DNA of 32,168 bases from Candidatus Euphemobacter frigidus. GTDB taxonomy: Bacteria > Auribacterota > Erginobacteria > Erginobacterales > Erginobacteraceae. This document shows, piece after piece, positions 5,841 to 19,321 of this stretch. The DNA lies in the NCBI GenBank assembly GCA_030765805.1, contig JAVCDH010000042.1, positions 1 through 32,168 on the forward strand, given 5' to 3'. The notes beneath the pieces were generated by a model. The model was not told where the DNA came from. It did no database searches and saw only the letters and a program-made list of their open reading frames with translations. Each line of letters opens with the position of its first letter. Position 1 is the first letter of the stretch. Made by a program: the position numbers and the translations under genes.

Positions 5841-5869
5841 AAACTATCCCCAAGATTGATCATAGTCAA
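5841..5869 (-). promoter_or_regulatory. Possible promoter of the NYN gene
   Basis: On the minus strand TTGACT (5864-5869) is followed after 17 bases by TAGTTT (5841-5846), about 57 bases before the NYN start. The -35 hexamer is good and the -10 is weak. The motif TTGGGGATA (5845-5853, minus strand) straddles the -10 region and recurs on the plus strand at 5971-5979 in front of the divergent gene. Confidence 0.3.
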
Positions 5870-5915
5870 CTGAAATTATTGATGATAAAAAAATCAAAAA
5901 TTAATATATTTTAAC

Positions 5916-5944
5916 TTGACTTTAATTTATTATAGGTTTATATT
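5916..5944 (+). promoter_or_regulatory. Strong sigma-70-type promoter of the DUF2089 operon
   Basis: TTGACT (5916-5921) and TATATT (5939-5944) are separated by exactly 17 bases and each match five of six consensus positions, in AT-rich sequence 41 bases before the DUF2089 start. It is the best promoter-like site in the window. Confidence 0.65.
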
Positions 5945-5967
5945 AATATTGTGATGAATAATATTAA
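5943..5967. promoter_or_regulatory. Operator-like inverted repeat over the -10/+1 region
   Basis: The arms TTAATATT (5943-5950) and AATATTAA (5960-5967) are perfect 8-base inverted repeats with a 9-base spacer, a centre-to-centre distance of about 17 bases. They overlap the end of the -10 hexamer and the expected transcription start, the usual place for a repressor site. Autoregulation by the adjacent HTH protein is an inference, and AT-richness raises the chance background. Confidence 0.4.
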
Positions 5968-5984
5968 CTTTTGGGGATATAATC

Positions 5985-6305
5985 ATGAGAGAAAAGAAGA
6001 GATGGATAGACCGGCTGGATGAAGAAGACCTGTCCTTCTTGAAGCGTTTTACGCTTGCTTCCGGTTCATTGAAAGCGGTCGCCCGGGTTTACGGCATCTC
6101 CTATCCGACCGTTCGTCTCCGGCTGGACCGTCTGATCGAGAAGATCAAGGTCATCGAGAGCATGGAGGAAGTCGGTCCGTTGGAACAACAGTTCCGTCTC
6201 CTTTATGCTGATGGAAAGATCGATCTCGCAATGTTAAAGGTGCTCCGTAAAGCCCATGAAAAAGAAAAGGAGGGAGAGAATGAGAACGCTGATAGCCACT
6301 CTTAG
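5985..6305 (+). CDS. DUF2089-family helix-turn-helix protein
   Basis: A 106-residue basic and acidic cytoplasmic protein matching the DUF2089 C-terminal family: RLDEEDLSFLKRFTLASGSLKAVARVYGISYPTVRLRLDRLIEKI. Residues 27-52 have the spacing of a sigma-factor-like helix-turn-helix, with GISYPTVRLRLDRL as the likely recognition helix, so a DNA-binding regulatory role is probable. The N-terminal zinc-ribbon of longer family members is absent. The middle contains an acidic helix and the tail is low-complexity (EKEKEGENENADSHS). It overlaps the following membrane protein gene by 26 bases, so the two are translationally coupled and likely work together, for example as a regulator and envelope sensor or effector. 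The promoter and operator-like repeat directly upstream suggest autoregulation. Confidence 0.85.
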   Translation: MREKKRWIDRLDEEDLSFLKRFTLASGSLKAVARVYGISYPTVRLRLDRLIEKIKVIESMEEVGPLEQQFRLLYADGKIDLAMLKVLRKAHEKEKEGENENADSHS

Positions 6306-7164
6306 CATCTTTATCCTCATCTCGTGCCCGGCCCTCTTCGGAGGAGAGACCATTCAGGAGATCACCTGGAGAGAATACAAGAGTCGGGGGGGAGCCGGTG
6401 AGGGAGAGGTCATTCGGCCGGAGGGCGAAGCCGGACCGTATGTCCTCGAATTAAAGAACCGGGAAGACAGAAGAAAGACCGCCCGGATCCTGATTATTAA
6501 AGAACCTGCTCTTACCATGGCGGATTACGCGATCAACGGTCAGGTTAAGTACCAGGGGGTGGAAGGCGACGGCTACCTCGAGATGTGGAGCGTCTTTGCC
6601 GACGGGAGCCGGTACTTCAGCCGGACGCTCGGTACCGGCGGACCGATGGAGAAGCTACACGGCTCATCCGGATGGAGAGATTTCGTGCTTCCATTCCGGA
6701 ACAAGCCGGGGAACCCTCCCCCCGAGAAACTTATTGTGAACGTGGTTCTCCCGGGACCCGGAACCGTCTGGGTCGGCCCGCTCCGGCTTGTGGAGTTAAA
6801 GCCGGGCGAGGACCCACTGGCCTTGCCCGGGCAATGGTGGACGGGCCGTTCCGCCGGGCTCTTCGGCGCGATCGCGGGCTCGCTTCTGGGCCTGACGGGA
6901 GGACTGATCGGCATCCTGGCGGGGAGAGGAAGAGCGCGCCGGCTGGTATTGAACCTTTTAACGTTAATACGGATTGCCGGGATCTGCGCCCTGCTGGCCG
7001 GGATTATCGCGATCATCCGGTCTCAGCCCTATGCGGTCTTTTATCCGTTATTATTACTGGGAGTGATCGCGGCCGGGGTCTCGTTTGGAGTCCGGCCGGC
7101 GGTGCGGAGACGGTATGTAGAACTGGAACTGCGGAGAATGCGCGCCCGGGATAGCTCTTATTGA
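6280..7164 (+). CDS. Exported-domain membrane protein coupled to DUF2089
   Basis: Not recognised as a named family. From the ATG at 6280, which has AGGAGGGAGAGA immediately upstream, it is 294 residues long; an in-frame start at 6256 lacks such a site. Residues 1-20 form a short signal-like segment containing LISC at 13-16, a possible lipobox. Residues 24-180 are a soluble, probably periplasmic beta-rich domain with a GWRDFVLPF segment resembling carbohydrate-binding jelly-roll modules. Three hydrophobic helices follow at about 193-215, 222-246 and 251-271, then a basic cytoplasmic tail rich in arginine. The gene overlaps the DUF2089 gene, implying a shared function, perhaps signal input from the envelope. 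Function remains unknown. Confidence 0.75.
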   Translation: MRTLIATLSIFILISCPALFGGETIQEITWREYKSRGGAGEGEVIRPEGEAGPYVLELKNREDRRKTARILIIKEPALTMADYAINGQVKYQGVEGDGYLEMWSVFADGSRYFSRTLGTGGPMEKLHGSSGWRDFVLPFRNKPGNPPPEKLIVNVVLPGPGTVWVGPLRLVELKPGEDPLALPGQWWTGRSAGLFGAIAGSLLGLTGGLIGILAGRGRARRLVLNLLTLIRIAGICALLAGIIAIIRSQPYAVFYPLLLLGVIAAGVSFGVRPAVRRRYVELELRRMRARDSSY

Positions 7165-7178
7165 GGAGAGCACAAAAT

Positions 7179-7206
7179 GGTTAAATGTGGGAGGGGCAAT
7201 TTAACC
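7179..7206 (-). terminator. Possible terminator between convergent genes
   Basis: A perfect 8-bp stem (GGTTAAAT at 7179-7186 pairing with ATTTAACC at 7199-7206) with a 12-base loop lies in the 62-base gap between the convergent genes ending at 7164 and 7227. Read on the minus strand it is followed by ATTTTGTG, a short U-run. The stem is AT-rich, so this is tentative. Confidence 0.35.
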
Positions 7207-7226
7207 CGAGGTGGCGCGGCCCGCTC

Positions 7227-7703
7227 TTATAAGCCCTCTCCTGATCGCTTATCCGGCCCATTCGGGGCTCGCACTATCACCCGAAGGCCTTTGACCTCGA
7301 TAACTTCCACCGGTGAATTCGCCGGGATGAACGCCCCCTCGGTAATCACCGAGACTCTCTTACCTCGAATCCGGGCGATCCCAGACGGCCTGAGCTGGGA
7401 GACGGAAGTCCCGAGGGAGCCGACCAGTTCGGCGTTCTCCCCACTTCCGGCTTGAAATCCATCCGACGAACGAGCCTCGCTGAAGAGAATTGTCTGCCGG
7501 GCTAACTTGGACCGGGGATTCTTCAAGGTCCGCAGGACAACGATCCAGAGCACGATGGATAAGAAGAGAAACGCCGCGATGGAGATAATGACCGCAACTT
7601 TAAAATGAGCCGGAGAGAGAGAACCATGCAAGATGATCAAGACCACAATAATAACAGCCAGTAAGACCAGTTTTGGAACCAGGATGATCGGGTGGTGGAT
7701 CAT
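7227..7703 (-). CDS. NfeD-like membrane protein with OB-fold domain
   Basis: A short NfeD-type protein (158 residues) of the kind that partners with stomatin/SPFH proteins in membrane microdomains. It has two N-terminal transmembrane helices at about 6-27 and 36-58, then a soluble C-terminal OB-fold of the NfeD family at about 90-148. The core is recognised by GSLGTSVSQLRPSGIARIRGKR, VSVITEGAFIPANSPVEVIEVKG and LRVIVRAP. No stomatin gene is in the window. The ATG at 7703 has AAGGAGGG eight bases upstream. It lies five bases after the DUF4380 gene and is the last gene of the GT2-GT4-permease-DUF4380-NfeD run. The family call is good; the role in this operon is unclear. Confidence 0.85.
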   Translation of the reverse strand: MIHHPIILVPKLVLLAVIIVVLIILHGSLSPAHFKVAVIISIAAFLFLSIVLWIVVLRTLKNPRSKLARQTILFSEARSSDGFQAGSGENAELVGSLGTSVSQLRPSGIARIRGKRVSVITEGAFIPANSPVEVIEVKGLRVIVRAPNGPDKRSGEGL

Positions 7704-7708
7704 TGTTC

Positions 7709-8660
7709 TTACCCTCCTTTATCTCTCTTTTGGTTATCGGCAACTGGCGACATAATCCGGAGAGTGGGCCGGAGGATCGCTTCTATCTCCTCTTCATCGT
7801 CGGAAGGCAGCGCAACATTGTCGAAAAGTTCCCACTCTTCCCGATGCTCGACCGCTCCCCCCGGCTCAAGAAAGGCCAGAGGAGAGAGGGTCTCCATCTC
7901 CAGCATGAAATCGTTGGTGTAAGTCTCGTATGATACACCGTAATCGGGATATCGCGCCTCGCAGATATGCTCATGCCGTTTCAGAAAGAGCCGATCCTGA
8001 TTAAGATAAGCCGCCCAGCCTTGCTCGTTGGGGATACCGATCTTAAAAGTGTTACTGATCGAGGAGTCCTGCCGAATGAAAATAAACCTCTCACCCCAGC
8101 GGACCCGGGGATCATTGAGCCGGGTGTAGGGCCAGAGGGAGATCAAACGGTTGGGGAGGAGTCCGGTATCCGCTCGGGGCTGGGGGATTATCTCCAGCCC
8201 ACCAGCCGCCATTACCGTAATAGCCCAGGCGGCAAGTTTGACCGGCCAGAGTCCCTGGTTGGTCAGCCGATGCAGAATAGCAACGCGGGAACCCGCAGGC
8301 TCGAGAGATATCTCCATCTCTTTCCGGATGCGCGTCCGGGGCTCAACCTCCTGCGTAACCGCTATGCCGCCCGGGAACTCCCGCCAAGCAACCTTCCCGT
8401 TGTCCGGCTGGGTAGGTACGGGGGTTGTCCTCCGGGCTGTGCCAGAGGCGATGACCCCCATACATCCGCCATTCATCCCCCCCGATCCTCCCCCGGTCTT
8501 TCTCAACCTCACAGAACATGTTAGGAGCGTCAGAAAACCCATAACGAATGACCCGGGGTCCGACATCGGTCGTCACCACGACCTCGACCAGCCCGTTGGT
8601 AAGCCGGAGGCAGTTCTTCCATCCCCCGCAAGTAAATTTCTCTATCCTTACCGCGCTCAT
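7709..8660 (-). pseudogene. DUF4380-family protein gene with a +1 frameshift
   Basis: The N-terminal part (8660 to about 8413) reads KNCLRLTNGLVEVVVTTDVGPRVIRYGF and WRMYGGHRLWHSPEDNPRTY, typical of DUF4380, a family with a galactose-mutarotase-like beta-sandwich. The reading then runs out of frame and ends at 8343. The family continues in another frame from QPDNGKVAWREFPGGIAVTQ to the stop at 7709. The whole interval is 952 bases, one more than 317 codons, and the shift maps to the GGG run at 8410-8412 (TACCCAG on the coding strand). Removing one base restores a 316-residue protein. The rest of both halves appears intact, so this is either a recent mutation, a sequencing or assembly error, or less likely programmed frameshifting. 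The ATG at 8660 has an AGGAGAGGA ribosome site. Substrate unknown. Confidence 0.85.
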
Positions 8661-9975: not shown

Positions 9976-11097
9976 TCACTTTGACTCGGCGGGCAACCCG
10001 ATCGATTCGAAGACCCGGGAGAGGCGACGCCCGAAAGCTTCCTCTGAAAACTCCCGGACCGCTCTCAACCGGCCTTCCTCTCCCAACTTCCTCCCCCGTT
10101 CCGGGTCCCGGAGGATAGTCAAAAGCGCTTCCGCGAGAGCCCCGGGTTCGCGACGCGGAACCAGCAACCCGGTCTCACCCTCGACTACCAGCTCGGGGAT
10201 GACCCCAACCGCGGTGGCCACTACCGGACATCCGCAGGCCATGTACTCACTTACCGCCCGCGAGTTCTCCTCGCTCCCGATTGATGAAGAGACACAGACC
10301 GCGGCGGAAGCGAGGAACCGCGGAATGTCTCCGCGGCGCCCGGTGAAGACAACCGCGTCCCCGATCCCTAACCGTTCCGCCTGTTCCTTCAGCCGGGCGG
10401 GCTGCCCGGCCCAGGGGTTTCCAACCAGCACCAGCACGGCGCGGGGAAACTCACGGCGGACGATCGCCATCCCCTCCAGAAGCAGGTCATGTCCCTTGAC
10501 CGGGGCCAGACGGGCCACTTTGACGATCAACTCCGCGTTATCCGGGATCCCCAACTCGTTGCGGAGTGTCCGGTCCGGAGAAGACGGCTTGAACTGCTCT
10601 ATATCAACCGGTGACAGGATCCGGTGGACGCGTTCCGGGGGAACCTTCAACCGCCGGGTGACCCAACCCTCAACCCGGGAAGATGAGACAAGTACCCCAT
10701 CGGTCAAACACCGGTAGAGGAAGCGGTTGCCGGGGTGGCCATAGGGACGTTTCGCCCCGCCCCGCAGATGCAGAAGAGGGACTCTCTTCCGGGCGGCCAG
10801 GGCGACCATGAGATGGGCGGGCGCCCGGGAGGAATGCAGGACATTGTAACCGCCCCGGCCGATCAGACCAGAGAGCCATCTCACGTCCCTGATAAAATCG
10901 AGGAACGACCGGGAAGGCGCCTTTCCCGGCAACTCGAGCAGCCGTGCGAAACCCGCTGCCGTCTGAGCCAGAACACTCTCCCGCGGCGCCACCACAGTCA
11001 CATCCATCCCCAGCGCCGCTTCCGCCCGGATCAGCCCGGCGGCATACTCCGTCTCTCCGTTCCAGCGGCTGGAGTGCGTGACGAGCAATGATTTCAT
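9976..11097 (-). CDS. Family 4 glycosyltransferase (GT-B fold)
   Basis: A retaining nucleotide-sugar glycosyltransferase of the GT4 type, 373 residues from the ATG at 11097. The N-terminal acceptor domain opens with KSLLVTHSSRWNGETEYAAGLIRAEAALG. The C-terminal donor domain contains the ARLAPVKGHDLLLEGM lysine-containing loop and the E-x7-E-like region SEENSRAVSEYMACGCPVVATAVGVIPELV. No membrane span is seen, so it is probably peripheral on the cytoplasmic face. The start overlaps the GT2 stop as ATGA, showing tight coupling. A longer in-frame start at 11130 was rejected because it lies within the GT2 gene and adds an atypical extension. LPS-core or exopolysaccharide assembly is likely from context; donor and acceptor are unknown. 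Confidence 0.92.
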   Translation of the reverse strand: MKSLLVTHSSRWNGETEYAAGLIRAEAALGMDVTVVAPRESVLAQTAAGFARLLELPGKAPSRSFLDFIRDVRWLSGLIGRGGYNVLHSSRAPAHLMVALAARKRVPLLHLRGGAKRPYGHPGNRFLYRCLTDGVLVSSSRVEGWVTRRLKVPPERVHRILSPVDIEQFKPSSPDRTLRNELGIPDNAELIVKVARLAPVKGHDLLLEGMAIVRREFPRAVLVLVGNPWAGQPARLKEQAERLGIGDAVVFTGRRGDIPRFLASAAVCVSSSIGSEENSRAVSEYMACGCPVVATAVGVIPELVVEGETGLLVPRREPGALAEALLTILRDPERGRKLGEEGRLRAVREFSEEAFGRRLSRVFESIGLPAESK

Positions 11098-11852
11098 TTT
11101 AAATTTTTCTTCTGTCTCTTCAACTCCCACAACTTCGCGTGTTTCTGGGCCACGTAGCAGGAAGAGAGGACAGCCGAGATTAGGCCGTGAGCTCCGTCCA
11201 GGAAGCCTATCCGTAAGATATAATTCTTAAAAAAGTTAAAGAGGGGATGGAGTAATATATTTGACGCGTGCCCCTTCCTCCCCTGCCGCAGATATCTTTG
11301 AGCTCCTTGTGTGGCATACTTCCGTGAATTAACGATGAATTCGTCGATGGTATGCAGAGTGTAGTGGTCGAGTCGGTGTTTAAAGACCCCGGCTCTGTCA
11401 TCCGGCAACAGAATCGGATGTATTTCAACATCACTGAAACGATAAGTATCTTTAAGAAAGAGGATGTTGTTCTGATCACGATTCCACCCCCCGTGCTTCA
11501 TCTCTCGCCCGAGAAAGAAACCACGGCGGAAGACACGGTATCTTCCATAACGGGGGTTTTTAAGCTCCTCCCGGATCTCGTCACAGAGCTCTTTCGGCAT
11601 CACTTCATCCGAATCGATGATCAGAATCCAGGGATGAGAAGCATGACTTATGGCCCGGTGCCTTTGAGACGTATCAGAAATATATTCATGCTGAAGAAAG
11701 ATATCAGCATATGGTTTCGCTAGTTCCACCGTCCGGTCAGTGCTAAAGGAATCGATCACAATCAGTTCATCAACCCAGCGTATACTTTGAAGGCACCGCT
11801 CAATCTCATTCTCGCGATTGAAACAGGTAACAACGCCACTTACTTTCTCCAT
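11094..11852 (-). CDS. Family 2 glycosyltransferase, LPS-core (WaaE/KdtX-like)
   Basis: An inverting glycosyltransferase of the GT-A fold, 252 residues. It opens with VSGVVTCFNRENEIERCLQSI, has VIDSFSTDRTVELAK in the nucleotide-binding region, and carries the metal-binding acidic motif as DSDE in WILIIDSDEVMPKEL. The later part, with HGGWNRDQNNILFLKD and HPLFNFFKNYILRIGFLDG, matches the subgroup containing WaaE/KdtX lipopolysaccharide-core glucosyltransferases. There is no clear transmembrane helix, though the amphipathic segment near residue 205-225 may bind membranes. The ATG at 11852 has GGAGG eight bases upstream. It is the first gene of the minus-strand GT2-GT4-permease run and is divergent from the ArnT-like pseudogene. 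The subgroup call is by resemblance. Confidence 0.88.
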   Translation of the reverse strand: MEKVSGVVTCFNRENEIERCLQSIRWVDELIVIDSFSTDRTVELAKPYADIFLQHEYISDTSQRHRAISHASHPWILIIDSDEVMPKELCDEIREELKNPRYGRYRVFRRGFFLGREMKHGGWNRDQNNILFLKDTYRFSDVEIHPILLPDDRAGVFKHRLDHYTLHTIDEFIVNSRKYATQGAQRYLRQGRKGHASNILLHPLFNFFKNYILRIGFLDGAHGLISAVLSSCYVAQKHAKLWELKRQKKNLK

Positions 11853-11960
11853 TAAAATTTCCTCCGTATAATTTTAATTAAGTATATAAAAATTTTCCCC
11901 CAGATATATACTAAATTTACAGTCTTGTCCATTAAACGGGTTGATCGTAGAATTTTAGAG

Positions 11961-12348
11961 ATGAAACCTTACCGCTCCATCTTCATCGGACTGGTGGTAG
12001 CCATGGCGATGATCACGGGAATCCATCATGATTACCTCTGGTCTCCGGACGAGCCGCGGGTGGCCGAGATCGCCCGGGAGACACTCATCGATGGGCATTG
12101 GATCACCCCCCATCTCTGCGGCCTTCCCTTTCTGGAGAAACCAGACCACCCCGGAGATTAACCGTCCGGATGAATTAAAGAAAATTCTCGGAAGTCAGGA
12201 GAAGGTTTATGTGATAATAGAACCGCGGATCTTCGAACCGATCTCGCGAGACCCGGCTCTAGCCGGGCTCTTTCAATCGACGCAGATTCAACATATAACC
12301 CGGCCGGATCCTTCACCCCGGCTAGTGCTGGTATCCAACCATGACTGA
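11961..12348 (+). pseudogene. ArnT-like glycosyltransferase remnant with large internal deletion
   Basis: The first 61 codons (MKPYRSIFIGLVVAMA ... LWSPDEPRVAEIARETL ... GLPFLEKP) match the N-termini of the intact ArnT-like genes at 15979 and 17624, including the DEPR and EKP active-site segments. After 12143 the frame hits a TAA at 12159. From about 12154 another frame reads EINRPDELKKILGSQEKVYVIIEPR to LVLVSNHD, alignable with the C-terminal domains of the same paralogues (for example NLGRLANILSGNDEVYDSVIVLLKR). Roughly 400 internal codons, all the remaining membrane helices, are missing. The 3' end still overlaps the next gene by eight bases (ATGACTGA), preserving an ancestral operon junction. 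It was presumably a fourth intact copy. Not expected to be active. Confidence 0.85.
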
Positions 12349-13081
12349 AAACCAGAAAAAAGTATCCATTATCAACAGAAAACTGTTGATCTATCTGATT
12401 GTCCCTGCTTTGATCAGTCTGATCTTTGTCTGGGGCTACTTCTTCGGTGATCTCCGGGTCCAGGAACTGGTTGCACCCCGGATTAACCGGGAGTACGGCC
12501 TGCTGGAAAACCTTCAGAACCTGGGCCTTCTGGCGCTGATCGCCCTGGCGGTCTATGGGTTAACCCGCAAGCGTTTGTGTTTTGAGATAGTGATCCTGAT
12601 CTGCATCTTGGCTGGGGGTATTTTTCTCTTTATGGAAGAGATCGATTACGGGCGTCTCCATTATCGCTATCTGAGCGGTGACCCCATTGACGACCGGGTA
12701 AAGGATGCCGAAGGTAAGGGGAGTGATTGGAATATCCACAACCAGGACAATATCAATCAGCTCTTTAAACGTACCCTTGACATGGGGATGATCGCCTTCT
12801 TTATCATCTTCCCCCTGGTTTCCTGGAAGAGTACCAACCGGTTGATCCGCTATCTCCGTCCGGATCCCTGGTTCATCCTGACCATGGTGACCATGCTGGC
12901 CGTCTCCCGGTACTCCAAGGCCTTGAATCGAGCCGGGTTGGGAATGGAGGGGGCTCTCCAGGCGAACACCGCCAAGTTCCGGGAGATAATCGTTTACTAC
13001 GTCTTTTTCATCTATCTTCTTACGTTTATCTTCCGGCGCAGATACGTTTCTAGATCGGAAATCCAGCAAATAAAGTATTAA
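12341..13081 (+). CDS. Polytopic membrane protein, EYGxxE / EEIDYG family (copy 1)
   Basis: A 246-residue inner-membrane protein with about six helices (near 15-35, 58-74, 80-98, 146-161, 176-190 and 215-232). Its motifs are EYGLLE at 51-56, MEEIDYGR at 98-105 at the end of the third helix, and IHNQDN at 132-137. The same motifs in the same order occur in the protein at 24536, so the two are paralogues despite low overall identity. I recognise this only as an uncharacterised family with an EEI(S,N,D)WG signature, found in glycan clusters. It overlaps the ArnT-like pseudogene by eight bases, and its paralogue directly precedes another ArnT-like gene. A role with lipid-linked sugar, such as flipping or presenting undecaprenyl-linked donors, is plausible but unproven. 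Confidence 0.8.
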   Translation: MTENQKKVSIINRKLLIYLIVPALISLIFVWGYFFGDLRVQELVAPRINREYGLLENLQNLGLLALIALAVYGLTRKRLCFEIVILICILAGGIFLFMEEIDYGRLHYRYLSGDPIDDRVKDAEGKGSDWNIHNQDNINQLFKRTLDMGMIAFFIIFPLVSWKSTNRLIRYLRPDPWFILTMVTMLAVSRYSKALNRAGLGMEGALQANTAKFREIIVYYVFFIYLLTFIFRRRYVSRSEIQQIKY

Positions 13082-13175
13082 TATTTCTGATGAAGAATTC
13101 GGAAATCAATCGCGGCCCGCTCCCCATTCCGTTATTAATAAAGAAAGGCAGGAGAAATAAAGGAGATTACCCGAT

Positions 13176-14663
13176 ATGAAAGCGATAATCCTGGCGGCCG
13201 GGAAAGGATCTCGACTTGGTGCAATCAGCAAGGGAAAACCTAAATGCCTGATCGATATAGAAGGCAACACACTGCTGGAAATCCAGATCAACACCCTCCA
13301 TGCCTGCGGTATCGATGATGTTTCAGTGGTCCGGGGATATGCCGGTGACAGGATCGATATTCCGGGATTGACGTATTTCGACAACCCCGATTACACCGAC
13401 ACCAATATACTCCACTCCCTTTTCTGCGCCCGTGAAGCGATGACCGGCCCCTTGCTGATCCTCTACTCGGATATCATCTACGAAGAACAGGTTGTCAGGC
13501 GCCTGGTTGAGGCGAGGCATGACATCGCGGTCGGGGTGATGGTCAACTGGAAGGACTCGACGCGACAGCGCAGCAAGATAGCTCTGGAAGAACTGGAGAT
13601 GGTGTATTTTGATTCTGAAAACCGGGTTCAAGAGATCGGGAAACGACTTACCGATGAATATGAAACCCGGGGACAGTTTATCGGGATGGTCAAATGCTCA
13701 CGGCGGGGCGCGGAGCTCTTAAAAAAAAACTATGATCGGATGGCAAAGTTCTACCCCGGTCAGGCAGACCTATTAAAAAAAGCCTGGATGACCGATATCT
13801 TCCAGGAGATGACCGAGTTGGGAGTGCCTCTTCACTGTGTCATCATTGAAAGAGGATGGATGGAGATCGATACCCCGGATGATTATGAACGGGCGTTGAC
13901 GGATACTCATTTCATTCGCCGTCTGGTAAAGATAACGACCGACTGGGACCAGCGGGCCAGGTTCTATGACCGTCTGGAATGGGCGGCCAAAAACCAGCTG
14001 CTCGATACCATTGTCGATATGGCCGGGATATCGAAAGAAGAGAAGGTCCTTGATCTGGGCACCGGTACGGGAAAGATTCTCATCGCCTCGAAGAAAGAAC
14101 AGCCTGATGCTGAATATTTCGGGATTGATATCAGCCGGTCCATGCTGGAAAAGATAGATCCCTCGTATGGATTTGACCTCTCCATCAAGGAGATGGAGGA
14201 CCTGCGCGGTTTCGCTGACGGGGATTTCGACGTTCTGACCGCCCGGATGGTCTTTCATCACGCCCGGAACCTTGAGAGAGCGATGGACGAAGTACACCGG
14301 GTCCTTAAACCGGGGGGAAGATTTATCCTCTGCGAGGGAAACCCGCCCGATCGTTACTCCCTCCCATTCTACGAGAGCATGTTCCGTTTTAAAGAGGATA
14401 GAATTACCTTTCTCCTCGATGATCTCGTCAATCTCCTGGGCCAGCGGGGATTTAAAAATATCACCTCCAGGACAGTGATATTGCGACAGATGAGTATGAA
14501 CAACTGGCTTGAGAATTCGGGGCTCCCATTTCGCAACATCGATATTATTCGAAAGATGCACTATGAGTGCGATGCCGGTATTCAAAAGGCCTATAACATG
14601 ACCGTCCGGGATGATGACATCCTGATGGATTGGAAATTTTCGGTGGTATCGGGGGTTAAGTAA
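13176..14663 (+). CDS. Nucleotidyltransferase-methyltransferase fusion
   Basis: A two-domain cytoplasmic enzyme of 495 residues. Residues 1-245 are a sugar/choline-phosphate-type nucleotidyltransferase, with LAAGKGSRLG at 7-15, KGKPKCLIDIEG at 19-30, metal-binding Asp99 in YSDII, and a second acidic site EIDTPDD at 230-236. It resembles LicC/PntC-type cytidylyltransferases that activate small phospho-compounds. Residues 255-495 are a class I SAM-dependent methyltransferase, with motif I VLDLGTGTGK at 291-300, FGIDIS near 316 and HRVLKPGGRFILCEG near 374-388. The ATG at 13176 follows AGGAG by about ten bases. Only three bases separate it from the polyol-phosphate transferase gene, so a CDP-activated, possibly methylated group is probably passed to that enzyme. 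The actual substrate is unknown; a phosphocholine-like or O-methyl polyol phosphate product is an inference. Confidence 0.85.
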   Translation: MKAIILAAGKGSRLGAISKGKPKCLIDIEGNTLLEIQINTLHACGIDDVSVVRGYAGDRIDIPGLTYFDNPDYTDTNILHSLFCAREAMTGPLLILYSDIIYEEQVVRRLVEARHDIAVGVMVNWKDSTRQRSKIALEELEMVYFDSENRVQEIGKRLTDEYETRGQFIGMVKCSRRGAELLKKNYDRMAKFYPGQADLLKKAWMTDIFQEMTELGVPLHCVIIERGWMEIDTPDDYERALTDTHFIRRLVKITTDWDQRARFYDRLEWAAKNQLLDTIVDMAGISKEEKVLDLGTGTGKILIASKKEQPDAEYFGIDISRSMLEKIDPSYGFDLSIKEMEDLRGFADGDFDVLTARMVFHHARNLERAMDEVHRVLKPGGRFILCEGNPPDRYSLPFYESMFRFKEDRITFLLDDLVNLLGQRGFKNITSRTVILRQMSMNNWLENSGLPFRNIDIIRKMHYECDAGIQKAYNMTVRDDDILMDWKFSVVSGVK

Positions 14664-14666
14664 GGT

Positions 14667-15851
14667 ATGCAGACTAAAAAAAACATAGTCTACTTCTCCC
14701 GGGAGAGCGTGGTCTTCTTCACCTACATGTTGCCCATCTGGAAGAAGACCGGCGGAGTGTTTGTCACCGAATCGGAATCCCTTTATAATTATGTAAAAAC
14801 CAATTACCCGTTAATTGAAAGTTACCTGGATAAACGGAAGAATCTGGCCCGCTACCAACCCGGGGCAGTCGTCTTAGCCGGCGATGAGCGAAAAATCCAT
14901 CCTAAATATAAACTCGTGCAGGTATTTCATGGTCTCGCTGATAAAAAGGGTGTGTATGATAAGAACAACTTCAAAAATCGGGAAAGCATATTTTTCTTAA
15001 TAAGTCGCTTTATAGAACATCATCTGCCCGCGTGTTTTAAAAAGTTCAGCCTTTTGAGTGATGATTTATGGCACCCTTTTAAGCTATTACATTTGGACAA
15101 GCTTATAAAAGATAGAAATAGCCTCCTCTGCTTAACTGGAAAACATATGGAAGAAAAATTGAGGTCCATAAATGTTCTGACTGATAACAACTGGGCAGCA
15201 GTCGGATTCCCGCGACTGGACGTCTTGGCCAACAATGAATTATCACGAGATAAAATTGTTAAGGAACTTAAACTCAACCCGGATCAACAGACAATTATCT
15301 ATGCGCCAACCTGGCACGGAGTCGGCAGGATCAACCTTAGTTCTATCCCCGACCTGGGTTTGGAAGTCTGTCAAGCGGCCGGCAGCGAGGTGAACTTCAT
15401 CTTCAAACCTCATCCCAACGTCATCGCGAATGATGAATTCCCGGAAGCCATGGAAAAAATTGCTGAGTACATAAAAAAACATTCGAACTGTTTTTACCCC
15501 GATCCCAATATCGATCCAATCCCCCTGATGTATATATCGGATCTGATGATAACGGATTTCTCTTCGGTCGCGGTCGACTATCTCGCTTTTGATAAACCCA
15601 TGGTATTCATTGATCATCTTGGAGAGAGATGGTCCGACCACGATCTGGTGGAAGTTTGGGTGCGGGAGGCGGGGGAGATAGTGCGGGACCCGGACCAACT
15701 TCGGCCGGCAATTCAAAAGTGCCTGGCTAATTCATTGGACAGATCAGAGATACGGCAAAAATTTCGCGACTATTTCTTTTATTCTCTGGACGGCAAAGCA
15801 TCGGAGCGAGCGGCAGAAGCCATCCTCGAACTTGCCCGGATGGAGCAGTAA
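14667..15851 (+). CDS. CDP-glycerol glycerophosphotransferase family protein (TagB/TagF-like)
   Basis: A 394-residue transferase of the family that moves polyol- or alditol-phosphate groups from CDP-linked donors onto envelope glycans. Signature segments are VFHGLADKKG near 87-96, PTWHG at 214-218, KPHPN at 247-251, and the end motif SDLMITDFSSVAVDYLAFDKPMVF at 291-314. There is no transmembrane helix; such proteins act on the cytoplasmic face of the membrane. It follows the NTase-methyltransferase fusion with a three-base gap, the expected pairing of donor synthesis and transfer. The stretch at about 14930-15210 is clearly richer in A and T than neighbouring genes, hinting at separate acquisition. 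In a lipid-A-making bacterium it would decorate LPS or capsule rather than teichoic acid. Donor and acceptor are unknown. Confidence 0.9.
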   Translation: MQTKKNIVYFSRESVVFFTYMLPIWKKTGGVFVTESESLYNYVKTNYPLIESYLDKRKNLARYQPGAVVLAGDERKIHPKYKLVQVFHGLADKKGVYDKNNFKNRESIFFLISRFIEHHLPACFKKFSLLSDDLWHPFKLLHLDKLIKDRNSLLCLTGKHMEEKLRSINVLTDNNWAAVGFPRLDVLANNELSRDKIVKELKLNPDQQTIIYAPTWHGVGRINLSSIPDLGLEVCQAAGSEVNFIFKPHPNVIANDEFPEAMEKIAEYIKKHSNCFYPDPNIDPIPLMYISDLMITDFSSVAVDYLAFDKPMVFIDHLGERWSDHDLVEVWVREAGEIVRDPDQLRPAIQKCLANSLDRSEIRQKFRDYFFYSLDGKASERAAEAILELARMEQ

Positions 15852-15916
15852 GCGTTATACGAGAAATAAGCAGACAATCCAGCTGAATGCAGGTTTAATG
15901 GTCCGAACATTCCGAC

Positions 15917-15959
15917 GCTAATGATACAAAACACGTACGACGTGTTTTGTATCATTAGC
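15917..15959. repeat. Perfect 20-bp inverted repeat (hairpin) between operons
   Basis: The arms at 15917-15936 and 15940-15959 are perfect reverse complements of 20 bases with a 3-base loop (ACG). The repeat sits in the 127-base gap between the polyol-phosphate transferase and the first ArnT-like gene. No U-run follows on either strand, so it is not a classical intrinsic terminator. It could be a factor-assisted terminator, an mRNA stabiliser or a small mobile-element relic. Confidence 0.9.
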
Positions 15960-15978
15960 ATTGAAATGCGCAGAATAA

Positions 15979-17634
15979 ATGAAGAATGAAAGTTCAATCC
16001 CGTTCTGGGTTATCCTGCTTGTTCTGGCGACCCTGGCAGTCGGGGTGGGGGGGCATGAAGTCTGGACCCCGGATGAGCCGCGGGAGGCGGCGATTGCCCG
16101 ATCGATCTTCTCCAGCCGAACTTGGCTGATCCCGGAGCTGGGCGGCCAGCCCTTCGTGGAGAAACCCCCCCTTTACTACTGGGTCTCGGCCCTGATGATG
16201 CGCTCTTTGGGAGCAATCATCGGACCCACGACCGCGGCTCGCGCCACCTCCGCCCTCTGCGCCGCGTTGACACTGCTGGTGACTTGGTTGGTGGTCAGAA
16301 GATCCTGGGGACGGTTCCGGGGATGGGCTGTTCTCTTAATCCTGGGGACGATGTTCGGTTTTGTCCGGGCCGGCCACTGGATCATCATCGACCCTCTCCT
16401 GATGCTGCTCATCTCCGCGTCCGTCCTGCTCCTCTTCCTGGGGCTGGACCGGGAACGGGATACCGCGCTCCTGGCCGGTTACTGCATGGCCGGATTGGCT
16501 TTTCTGACCAAGGGGTTTGTTGCCTGGATGCTGCTTTTCCTTCCCTGGGGGCTGCTCGGCGGTCTATATTTTCGGTCCATCCGCCGCCGGCCGGGACTCC
16601 ACCTGGCCGGACTGCTGCTTCTGCTGGGGCCGCCGGCAGTCTGGATGGGAGCCTTCTACCTCCAGGCCGGCCCGGAACTCTGGCGGGAGTGGTTCATCGA
16701 CAATCAGATCGGCCGGTTTACCGGCGGGTCGGCGCACCTGGGGCATATTAAAGGCCCCTTCTATTACCTCTGGATGCTCCCCCTGATACTCCTCCCCTGG
16801 ACCCCGGCTCTGATCGGCTGGGCTGTCGCCCGCGGCTGGAGAAGCCGGCCCGGCCAGAGCGGAGAGGGCCGGAACCTCCTCTTTCTCTCACTCGCCTGGG
16901 GATTGGGTGGAGTGCTCCTCCTCTCGCTGGCCGGGACCAAGCGGGAGGTCTATCTCTATCCGCTCCTGCCGGCATTCGCGATTATGACCGCTGCTGGCTT
17001 CGCGACGATCCCCCGCTGGTCCGGGGTAGTCATCCGGGTCCTCTGCGGCATCTTCTTACTGGTGCTGCTCGTCTTCTCATTCTTCATCCTGGACTGGGAA
17101 GCCGGGAGTCTTACCACGGCCGTGGGGATCAATCTTCCGGTTCTGCTCTGCGCCGGAGCCGGGATTATCTCGTTCCTCTATCTGAAGAAGAGGCCGGTGG
17201 CCCAGACCGCCGCGGTGGCCTCCCTCTTTTATATCGCCGCGAGTCTCACGGCGATGCCGGTCCTCGATAAGGTCTGGAGCTACCGGCCGATGACCGGGGT
17301 ACTGGCAGCGGCCATACCGGCAGAGTTCCGGGACCGAGTCTGTGTCTGGGGGAATGATGAGACGACCCAGGCGGTCTTCTCTTATTATCGGGACATCACG
17401 CTCCCGATGATAAAAGATCCGATCCGGGTAACCACCATCCTGAAAGGTGAAGATCCGGCGTTCGACCTGATCGTTATCCCCCGGCTGGGTGAGTTCGAAG
17501 AGTCCAACCCTTTTGCCCCTTCCTGGAAAACTCTCGCCCGGGCCGGAAAGGGGCGGCGGCGCGTCTTTTACTTGATTACGAAAGATGAGGAGAACACTAA
17601 AAACGGATTACCGGAGTCGATAAATGGAAATTAA
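15979..17634 (+). CDS. ArnT-like / GT39-family membrane glycosyltransferase (paralogue 1)
   Basis: A polytopic inner-membrane transferase of the protein-mannosyltransferase/ArnT superfamily, which uses polyprenyl-phosphate sugars and acts on the periplasmic side. The 551-residue protein (ArnT of E. coli has 550) has an N-terminal helix, then the first periplasmic loop with the catalytic-type acidic residues in WTPDEPREA (Asp32, Glu33) and GQPFVEKPPLYYW (Glu61, Lys62). About a dozen hydrophobic helices follow, and a soluble C-terminal domain starts near residue 435. The gene is the first of the arn run and overlaps the next paralogue by 11 bases. The ribosome site is weak. It may transfer Ara4N or another undecaprenyl-linked sugar to lipid A, LPS or protein; three paralogues here suggest different acceptors. 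Confidence 0.9.
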   Translation: MKNESSIPFWVILLVLATLAVGVGGHEVWTPDEPREAAIARSIFSSRTWLIPELGGQPFVEKPPLYYWVSALMMRSLGAIIGPTTAARATSALCAALTLLVTWLVVRRSWGRFRGWAVLLILGTMFGFVRAGHWIIIDPLLMLLISASVLLLFLGLDRERDTALLAGYCMAGLAFLTKGFVAWMLLFLPWGLLGGLYFRSIRRRPGLHLAGLLLLLGPPAVWMGAFYLQAGPELWREWFIDNQIGRFTGGSAHLGHIKGPFYYLWMLPLILLPWTPALIGWAVARGWRSRPGQSGEGRNLLFLSLAWGLGGVLLLSLAGTKREVYLYPLLPAFAIMTAAGFATIPRWSGVVIRVLCGIFLLVLLVFSFFILDWEAGSLTTAVGINLPVLLCAGAGIISFLYLKKRPVAQTAAVASLFYIAASLTAMPVLDKVWSYRPMTGVLAAAIPAEFRDRVCVWGNDETTQAVFSYYRDITLPMIKDPIRVTTILKGEDPAFDLIVIPRLGEFEESNPFAPSWKTLARAGKGRRRVFYLITKDEENTKNGLPESINGN

Positions 17635-19321
17635 CAGTAAAAAAAGAGGCCGGGGTGCGGGAGGCAGCAAGATACCGGCATGGGTGATCCTGATCTGCCT
17701 GGCCACGCTGGTCTTCGGGATCGCCGGACACGCGCTCTGGACCGCCGATGAGCCCCGGGAGGCGGAGATCGCCCGGGAGATGGCGGCGGGCGGCTCCTGG
17801 GTCATCCCCCACCTGGCGGGAGTTCCTTTTGTCGAGAAGCCGCCCCTCTATTACTGGCTCTCGGCCCTGGCAATGATGACGGCAGGGAAGATAGTCGGAA
17901 CAACGGTCGCGGCACGGGCAATCGCGGCGCTCTGCGGAGCCTTAACCCTCTGGATTCTCTGGCTGGTTCTTCGGGAATACCTGGGGCGATACCGGGCGCG
18001 GGCGGCGGTTCTTATCCTGACGACCATGGCCGGCTTCTTTCAGGCCACTCACTGGATATTGATCGACCCCCTTCTGATGCTGCTGGTCACCGCGGCCGTC
18101 CTCTTTTTCTTCCAGGGCTTCGACCGGGACCGTCCTTCTCTCCTGCTCGGAGCGTATCTCGCGGCCGGTTTGGCCTTTCTGACCAAGGGCTTCGTCGCCT
18201 GGGGCCTCCTGGCCGTCCCCTGGGGCTGCCTGATGGTTCTCTATTTCAGGGAGATTGCCAAGAGGCCACTCCTCCACCTGGCGGGGATCCTCCTCCTGAT
18301 CGGGCCCGGGCTGGCCTGGGCCGTGGCTTTCTATTCCCGGGGCGGGCCGGAGTTATGGAATGAATGGTTCATCAACAATCAGATCGGCCGTTTCTCCGGA
18401 CAGACGACCCATTCTCATGAACGCGGGATGCTCTACTATCTCGGGGTCGCGCCTATCCTTCTTCTCCCCTGGACCCCGCTCCTTCTCGGCGGGATCCGCC
18501 GCCGGAGCCGGGATAGGATCGAAGAGGCGGAATCAGGGGGACAGGCACTACTCAAAGTAGCCCTGGCCTGGGCTCTCGGAGGACTTATTCTACTCTCCCT
18601 GGCCAGTACCAAGCGCGGTATCTACCTCTATCCGTTGCTGCCCGGCTTCGCGTGTCTCGCGGCCTTCTCTCTTAATAAGAACCCCTACTGGGTGGAGGTG
18701 GTCTACCGGTTCCTCTGCCCTATCCTAGTCCTTCCGTCCCTTCTCCTCTCTCTGGTTATTTCGGGCCGCCTCCTCTCTCTAATTCCCCCGACACTGACCT
18801 GGAAAGGGACCGGCATTGGGCTGGACTTCAATCCTATCGTCATTATTCTGGCAGTCGCGGGGATATTCGCCCTCGTTCGTTTCAAGAACAATCTCCTTCC
18901 CCGGGTCGCGACAGTCAGCGGTCTACTCTATCTGACCGTCATCTTCGCGGTCTTCCCCCTGATCGACGCGGAGAAGAACTACGAGCCGGCCACCCGGCGT
19001 CTGACCGCTGCCATCCCAACGGAAGGCCGGGGCCGGGTCTGCGGGTGGTATACGGACGAGACCATCCGGGCCATCTTCTCATATTATACCGGGTTGACCC
19101 TGATCGACCTGCGTGATAAAGTAAATCCTGAAAAAAATCTGGGCCGTCTGGCCAATATTCTCAGCGGGAATGACGAGGTCTATGACTCAGTCATCGTATT
19201 GCTAAAGAGAGATAGAGAGTTTCCTCCGAAAGGGATGCCGGAGGCCTCATTTCAGATTGTCAAAGAGGAAAAAATGGGCCGGAATCGCCGGCTATTGTTG
19301 CTGACCGGGCAGAGAAAGTAA
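17624..19321 (+). CDS. ArnT-like / GT39-family membrane glycosyltransferase (paralogue 2)
   Basis: Tandem paralogue of the preceding gene, 565 residues, with recognisable similarity along its whole length (for example WTADEPREAEIAREM, PFVEKPPLYYWLSAL, LAGLAFLTKGFVAWG, ILLLPWTPLLLGG). The active-site-type residues are Asp42 and Glu43 in DEPR, and Glu71 and Lys72 in EKPP. The N-terminus carries an extra basic stretch, KKRGRGAGGSK, expected to be cytoplasmic. It begins inside the end of paralogue 1 and ends 15 bases before arnB, so it is in the arn transcript. Its N-terminus is also the closest match of the three genes to the deleted pseudogene at 11961. Family assignment is firm. Which paralogue is the true lipid A Ara4N transferase cannot be decided from sequence alone. 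Confidence 0.9.
   Translation: MEINSKKRGRGAGGSKIPAWVILICLATLVFGIAGHALWTADEPREAEIAREMAAGGSWVIPHLAGVPFVEKPPLYYWLSALAMMTAGKIVGTTVAARAIAALCGALTLWILWLVLREYLGRYRARAAVLILTTMAGFFQATHWILIDPLLMLLVTAAVLFFFQGFDRDRPSLLLGAYLAAGLAFLTKGFVAWGLLAVPWGCLMVLYFREIAKRPLLHLAGILLLIGPGLAWAVAFYSRGGPELWNEWFINNQIGRFSGQTTHSHERGMLYYLGVAPILLLPWTPLLLGGIRRRSRDRIEEAESGGQALLKVALAWALGGLILLSLASTKRGIYLYPLLPGFACLAAFSLNKNPYWVEVVYRFLCPILVLPSLLLSLVISGRLLSLIPPTLTWKGTGIGLDFNPIVIILAVAGIFALVRFKNNLLPRVATVSGLLYLTVIFAVFPLIDAEKNYEPATRRLTAAIPTEGRGRVCGWYTDETIRAIFSYYTGLTLIDLRDKVNPEKNLGRLANILSGNDEVYDSVIVLLKRDREFPPKGMPEASFQIVKEEKMGRNRRLLLLTGQRK

Follow-up and report, generated by a model that had tools for sequence, protein, structure and literature searches.

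Where bacteria display phosphocholine or related groups on their surface, choline uptake or lipid methylation is the usual explanation. Several cytidylyltransferases acting on small phosphorylated compounds have been described. LicC of S. pneumoniae is a CTP:phosphocholine cytidylyltransferase with solved structures (1jyk/1jyl), and Cj1416 of Campylobacter is a phosphoglutamine cytidylyltransferase. In the nucleotidyltransferase PntC, the residues Arg15, Lys25 and Lys153 and a metal Asp were demonstrated or proposed to be important, and Glu104 was placed near the amine and equated with D105 of LicC (PMC6697681). The phosphoglycerate cytidylyltransferase CpgD, which is COG1213-type, activates a small non-sugar phosphate destined for an envelope component, the sphingolipid CPG2 (PMC12275187). 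Here, a locus is described in which a nucleotidyltransferase of this kind and a methyltransferase form one protein, encoded next to a TagF/TarL-like phosphotransferase.

Layout and occurrence of the fusion gene

The fusion gene occupies positions 13176-14663 of the forward strand of the window, that is, the whole stretch of 32,168 nucleotides analyzed. The open reading frame runs from an ATG to a TAA ending at 14663, encodes 495 aa and is preceded by AGGAG (13161-13165, same strand), a probable ribosome-binding site. Residues 1-245 (13176-13910) form a nucleotidyltransferase (NTP) domain of the LicC/PntC/Cj1416 type, assigned by Pfam (NTP_transf_3, aa 3-126, 1.9e-17), profile search and residue mapping. 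A linker of 11 aa (aa 246-256; 13911-13943) leads to a SAM methyltransferase (MT) domain (aa 257-495 plus the stop; 13944-14663), assigned by Methyltransf_11 (aa 292-385, 8.8e-19; 68.4 bits against a cut-off of 21.2), alignment A1 and standalone relatives. AlphaFold prediction of the fusion from a two-sequence alignment gave a pLDDT of 34.8. Three bases separate the fusion stop from the ATG of the transferase gene at 14667. The initial annotation had described a protein joining a LicC/PntC-like nucleotidyltransferase to a SAM methyltransferase, encoded three bases ahead of a CDP-glycerol-type transferase; Pfam, the profiles and recurrence in two other genomes bear out the fusion, and the reading frame coordinates and the PF04464 assignment bear out the spacing.

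The fusion is no artefact, being conserved at full length in two other genomes. A single uninterrupted frame was found in the window genome (G000), in a Candidatus Aminicenantes genome (G059; L001/L042) and in G828 (L114), which came up among the relatives of G059. The full-length fusions of L001 and L114 are 61-67% identical to the window protein and have no internal stops, and the linker aligns without gaps across 3/3 fusions. Codon comparison of the three genomes gave a dN of 0.18-0.28 in both halves; dS was saturated throughout the NTP and MT comparisons, which leaves dN rather than dN/dS as the readout of constraint. The identity, the similar dN of the two halves and the gap-free linker together indicate constraint on the fusion. 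In G828, an enolase gene (L114, 6608-7909) lies immediately 5' of the fusion, perhaps by chance.

Among 44 genomes searched in its own phylum, the window genome was the only one to carry the full fusion, and a scan of 84,980 species, which detects close relatives only, matched the fusion only at L001. The group of G059 is larger than the phylum of the window genome, which suggests that the fusion moved between phyla. The halves also occur separately in other genomes, as NTP alone, NTP behind a PEP mutase and MT alone. A search of open-licence full text for nucleotidyltransferase-methyltransferase fusions returned nothing relevant, and the combination, absent from the literature so covered, appears to be a new pairing of known domain kinds.

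Residues and genomic neighbors of the two halves

The best solved relatives of the NTP half by profile were LicC (1jyk, 4.3e-22, 81.9 bits) and PntC (6pd1, 1e-16, 64.3 bits). Sugar-1-phosphate enzymes scored below both, and LicC 1jyk was the best solved relative by sequence too (1.6e-10). The family signature G-x-G-(T/S)-R-x4-8-P-K is present as G9-K-G-S-R13 ... P22-K23, together with a metal Asp (D99) and a C-terminal Glu-x-Asp (E230-I-D232). Residue mapping placed PntC Arg15, Lys25, Lys153 and the metal Asp D106 on R13, K23, K156 and D99 of the window protein, and E230 and D232 match E216 and D218 of LicC. In the MAFFT alignment LicC was shifted by one column at D105-A-D107, and D99 was taken for the metal Asp on the strength of its alignment with PntC D106. 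Profile ranking and residue mapping thus agree with the earlier proposal of a LicC/PntC-like rather than a sugar-1-phosphate nucleotidyltransferase; the predicted activity, and the expected reaction, would be the transfer of CMP from CTP onto a non-sugar phosphate.

The positions linked to substrate choice differ from both models. In the alignment with PntC, Tyr97 replaces the amine-contacting acid (Glu104 in PntC, D105 in LicC), which removes the PntC residue associated with aminoethylphosphonate. Of the LicC residues for phosphocholine specificity, D105 is thereby replaced as well, and a Glu aligns with W136 in a stretch that is unsurely aligned. When 31 NTP domains were placed in a tree (rooted at the midpoint purely for display; L114-L117 not among the rows), they separated into parts of 15 and 16 rows with 98/95 support, and Tyr97 is common to the whole 15-row group. 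This group holds the window fusion, L001, and GlpT/PgtP-linked, PEP-mutase-fused and Cj1416-like rows; the last label was given from neighboring amidotransferase-like and PEP-synthase-like genes read by eye, Cj1416 itself not being compared. The NTPs that are paired with PF04464 genes fall in the other, 16-row part of the tree. A GlpT/PgtP-like transporter accompanies sister genes of the NTP half, and the window genome gave weak matches only to such a transporter (best 38.8 bits against a cut-off of 407.75). Two NTP sisters (L115, 7717-8826; L116, 1677-2852), read from sequence, have an apparent N-terminal helix-turn-helix, and genes resembling a GlpT/PgtP transporter and a porin lie nearby.

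The MT half carries the SAM motif DLGTGTG, RMVFHH and its own C-terminal NNWLENSGLP; the G-x-G motif and the Methyltransf_11 match above cut-off identify it as a class I SAM methyltransferase. The top profile matches were two uncharacterized bacterial proteins, BH2331 and YcgJ, at about 85 bits and near full length. Next came the phosphoethanolamine N-methyltransferases (PMT; 3uj6, 4r6w, 5wp5), which outscored the other solved methyltransferases with a known function; they reached 52-53 bits, in a match confined to the SAM domain and ending at about profile position 180. N-methylation would be slightly favored over O-methylation for this reason. The position aligned with the amine-binding Asp of PMT, which we take to be D128 in PfPMT, is Met358 in the window protein; the aligned chain 4r6w has Ala there and is presumably a mutant. 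Of the methylation options raised at the outset, N-methylation toward phosphocholine is weakly supported, as Tyr97 and Met358 replace the amine-contacting acids.

Both halves point to CDP-alcohol chemistry, to judge from the neighbors of their separate relatives. Standalone MT relatives lie 65 bp (L023), about 150 bp (L066) and about 1 kb (L024) from a CDP-alcohol phosphotransferase gene, and NTP sister genes lie 68 bp (L022) and 2.6 kb (L115) from one. The phosphotransferases of L066 and L115 are full-length homologues (6e-32). For a fourth standalone MT relative (L068), no such gene was present within the stretch read. That relative, at about 5863-7902, follows a serine palmitoyltransferase-like gene. 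The independent proximity of each half to CDP-alcohol phosphotransferases, given as raw counts over few loci, is the main argument that the halves would serve one pathway.

The adjoining transferase and the surrounding region

The gene at 14667-15851 (forward strand, ATG start) encodes a single-domain TagF/TarL-like phosphotransferase of 394 aa, assigned by PF04464 (Glyphos_transf, 8e-32; 111 bits against a cut-off of 22.1), profiles (matches to 8qoy, 8va1 and 3l7i) and invariant columns. The catalytic His-Gly is found as the invariant H88-G89, which falls on TagF residue 444 in the profile alignment, and H249, D292 and SS299-300 are also invariant. Among relatives of this transferase in other genomes, a LicC-like gene directly adjoins it in 9/19 loci (gap of at most 82 bp or overlap); this is a raw, uncontrolled count and not a probability, since the LicC-like profile was built from A2 and four of the counted neighbors, which gave it part of its training, and contig ends truncate some of the loci. 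The pairing logic of a PF04464 transferase with a LicC-like gene recurs. Conservation of this particular neighbor did not hold: a PF04464 gene is absent beside the fusions of L001 and L114, and a search of the G059 genome for a homologue of the transferase gave no match at E 0.001. The exact trio of NTP, MT and transferase is window-specific. In two loci (L087 and L091), the surroundings look by eye like LPS-core-like glycosyltransferases. In L090 (4453-6270, reverse strand), a single protein joins a LicC-like NTP to a CobD-like (threonine-phosphate decarboxylase) domain, and its gene directly adjoins a PF04464 gene; this protein has a Glu at the position of PntC E104, and CDP-ethanolamine as its product would be a guess.

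The GC content falls to 43-53% at 11001-16000 (~11.0-16.0 kb) against 60-65% in the flanks. Besides the fusion and the transferase, this stretch holds a glycosyltransferase and a membrane protein, and from its composition alone the region looks acquired. A perfect 20-bp inverted repeat with a 3-base loop (15917-15959) lies between the transferase gene and an arn-type (lipid A L-Ara4N) cluster; the fold of 15905-15978 as RNA gave -34.1 kcal/mol (z -8.3), and no second copy of the repeat was found elsewhere in the window. A single operon of the fusion/transferase pair with the downstream arn genes was considered and dropped because of the hairpin and the sharp GC step between them. The arn-type cluster begins with two ArnT-like genes in tandem (15979-19321), followed by ArnB-, ArnC-, ArnA- and ArnD-like genes. 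It fits an LPS-bearing diderm, in line with the envelope context first assumed for this genome. Upstream, a short ORF at 12028-12348, perhaps a remnant, ends in what resembles by eye the C-terminal region of an ArnT-type protein.

Proposed route, alternatives and comparison with known systems

Our preferred reading, to which we give about an even chance, is that the fusion makes a donor: a small phospho-alcohol (or phosphonate) would be activated with CTP, methylated and transferred to an LPS-type glycan. The NTP half would move CMP from CTP onto X-P, the phosphate or phosphonate of a small non-sugar compound X that is probably an amino-alcohol or polyol, to give CDP-X (or CMP-X). The MT half would methylate the X group with SAM, before activation or on CDP-X, and the PF04464 product would shift the methylated X-phosphate from its CDP carrier to an envelope glycan, most likely the LPS core or O-chain. 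The substrate class, the order of steps and the acceptor are what we infer. A more specific version is doubtful at present: the CDP conjugate itself might be methylated after CTP activation, which would place methylated phospho-groups (e.g., N-methylated aminoethyl phosphates) on LPS-type glycans with no need to take up choline, to phosphorylate it by choline kinase or to methylate phosphatidylethanolamine. Searches of open-licence full text returned nothing relevant on CDP-N-methylethanolamine in bacteria, and no usable precedent was found in the literature for CDP-2-glycerol in pneumococcus. Several observations speak against the preferred reading: no kinase or precursor enzyme adjoins the fusion, the transferase gene is missing beside it in L001 and L114, the NTPs paired with PF04464 genes elsewhere belong to another clade, and Tyr97 and Met358 stand in for the amine-recognition acids.

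The same CDP-alcohol evidence can be read in another way. The methylated CDP-alcohol could serve a membrane CDP-alcohol phosphotransferase, as a phospholipid head group or compatible solute, with the PF04464 gene as an unrelated glycan gene in the same island. We regard this as possible, though with a good deal less confidence. It accounts for the proximity of both separate halves to such enzymes and for the missing PF04464 gene at 2/3 fusion loci, and G059 encodes elsewhere a long phosphotransferase of that subfamily (296 bits). The window genome has only one weak match to the subfamily (34.5 bits), and the PF04464 gene, which shares the low-GC stretch with the fusion, starts three bases past its stop; both points count against this reading. 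Phosphonate tailoring, in which the fusion would activate and methylate an aminoalkyl- or hydroxyalkyl-phosphonate in a PntC-like manner, draws on the PEP-mutase fusions among the NTP-group relatives, whose gene clusters also hold genes like those for phosphonopyruvate decarboxylase and AEP transaminase. It is improbable, as phosphonate genes adjoin the fusion in 0/3 loci and no PEP mutase scored above cut-off in the 94.67% complete window genome (best 21.4 bits against 31.5).

A route like that to O-methyl phosphoramidate (Campylobacter Cj1415-Cj1418 type) would make the NTP half a phosphoglutamine cytidylyltransferase and let the MT half add the O-methyl group. Cj1416-like NTPs, with glutamine amidotransferase-like and PEP-synthase-like neighbors by eye, do share the 15-row group and Tyr97 with the window protein, and one of their clusters (L028) also has a methyltransferase; they form their own clade (100/99) excluding the window protein, an amidotransferase or kinase gene lies beside 0/3 fusions, and the route seems very unlikely. 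Equally remote is a chance fusion of halves with unrelated reactions. The rarity of the fusion (three genomes found) would suit it, and its preservation across separate phyla, with the gap-free linker and similar constraint in both halves, argues the other way.

If the donor-making reading is true, one protein combining a cytidylyltransferase with a methyltransferase of its own would produce a methylated donor by itself, and it lends itself to direct expression and assay. Short PF04464 transferases are repeatedly found beside LicC-like genes, which offers a handle for predicting unusual phosphate modifications across a wide range of uncultured bacteria.

Compared with described systems, the NTP half shares family and catalytic residues with LicC, which has no methyltransferase; LicC D105 corresponds to Tyr97 here, W136 is unmatched and D192 is unsurely placed in the alignment. 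PntC and the PEP-mutase-NTP fusions belong to the same nucleotidyltransferase family, and the latter are among the nearest NTP relatives (PMC6697681). PntC-type fusions carry a PEP mutase or transaminase, whereas the window protein carries a C-terminal methyltransferase in a genome where no PEP mutase scored above cut-off. Cj1416 is placed in the same wider NTP group through Cj1416-like genes, which have Tyr97 and differ in forming a separate clade; the fusion has no adjoining phosphoramidate pathway genes. CpgD is likened to the window NTP by description rather than by sequence, and it has no fused methyltransferase. The MT half matches PMT over part of its length, with Met358 in place of the amine-binding Asp, and BH2331 and YcgJ score much higher. 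TagF, TarL and Cps3D share PF04464, the HG motif and the SS motif with the window transferase, which differs from them in its short single-domain form and would use a CDP-alcohol donor, as predicted here.
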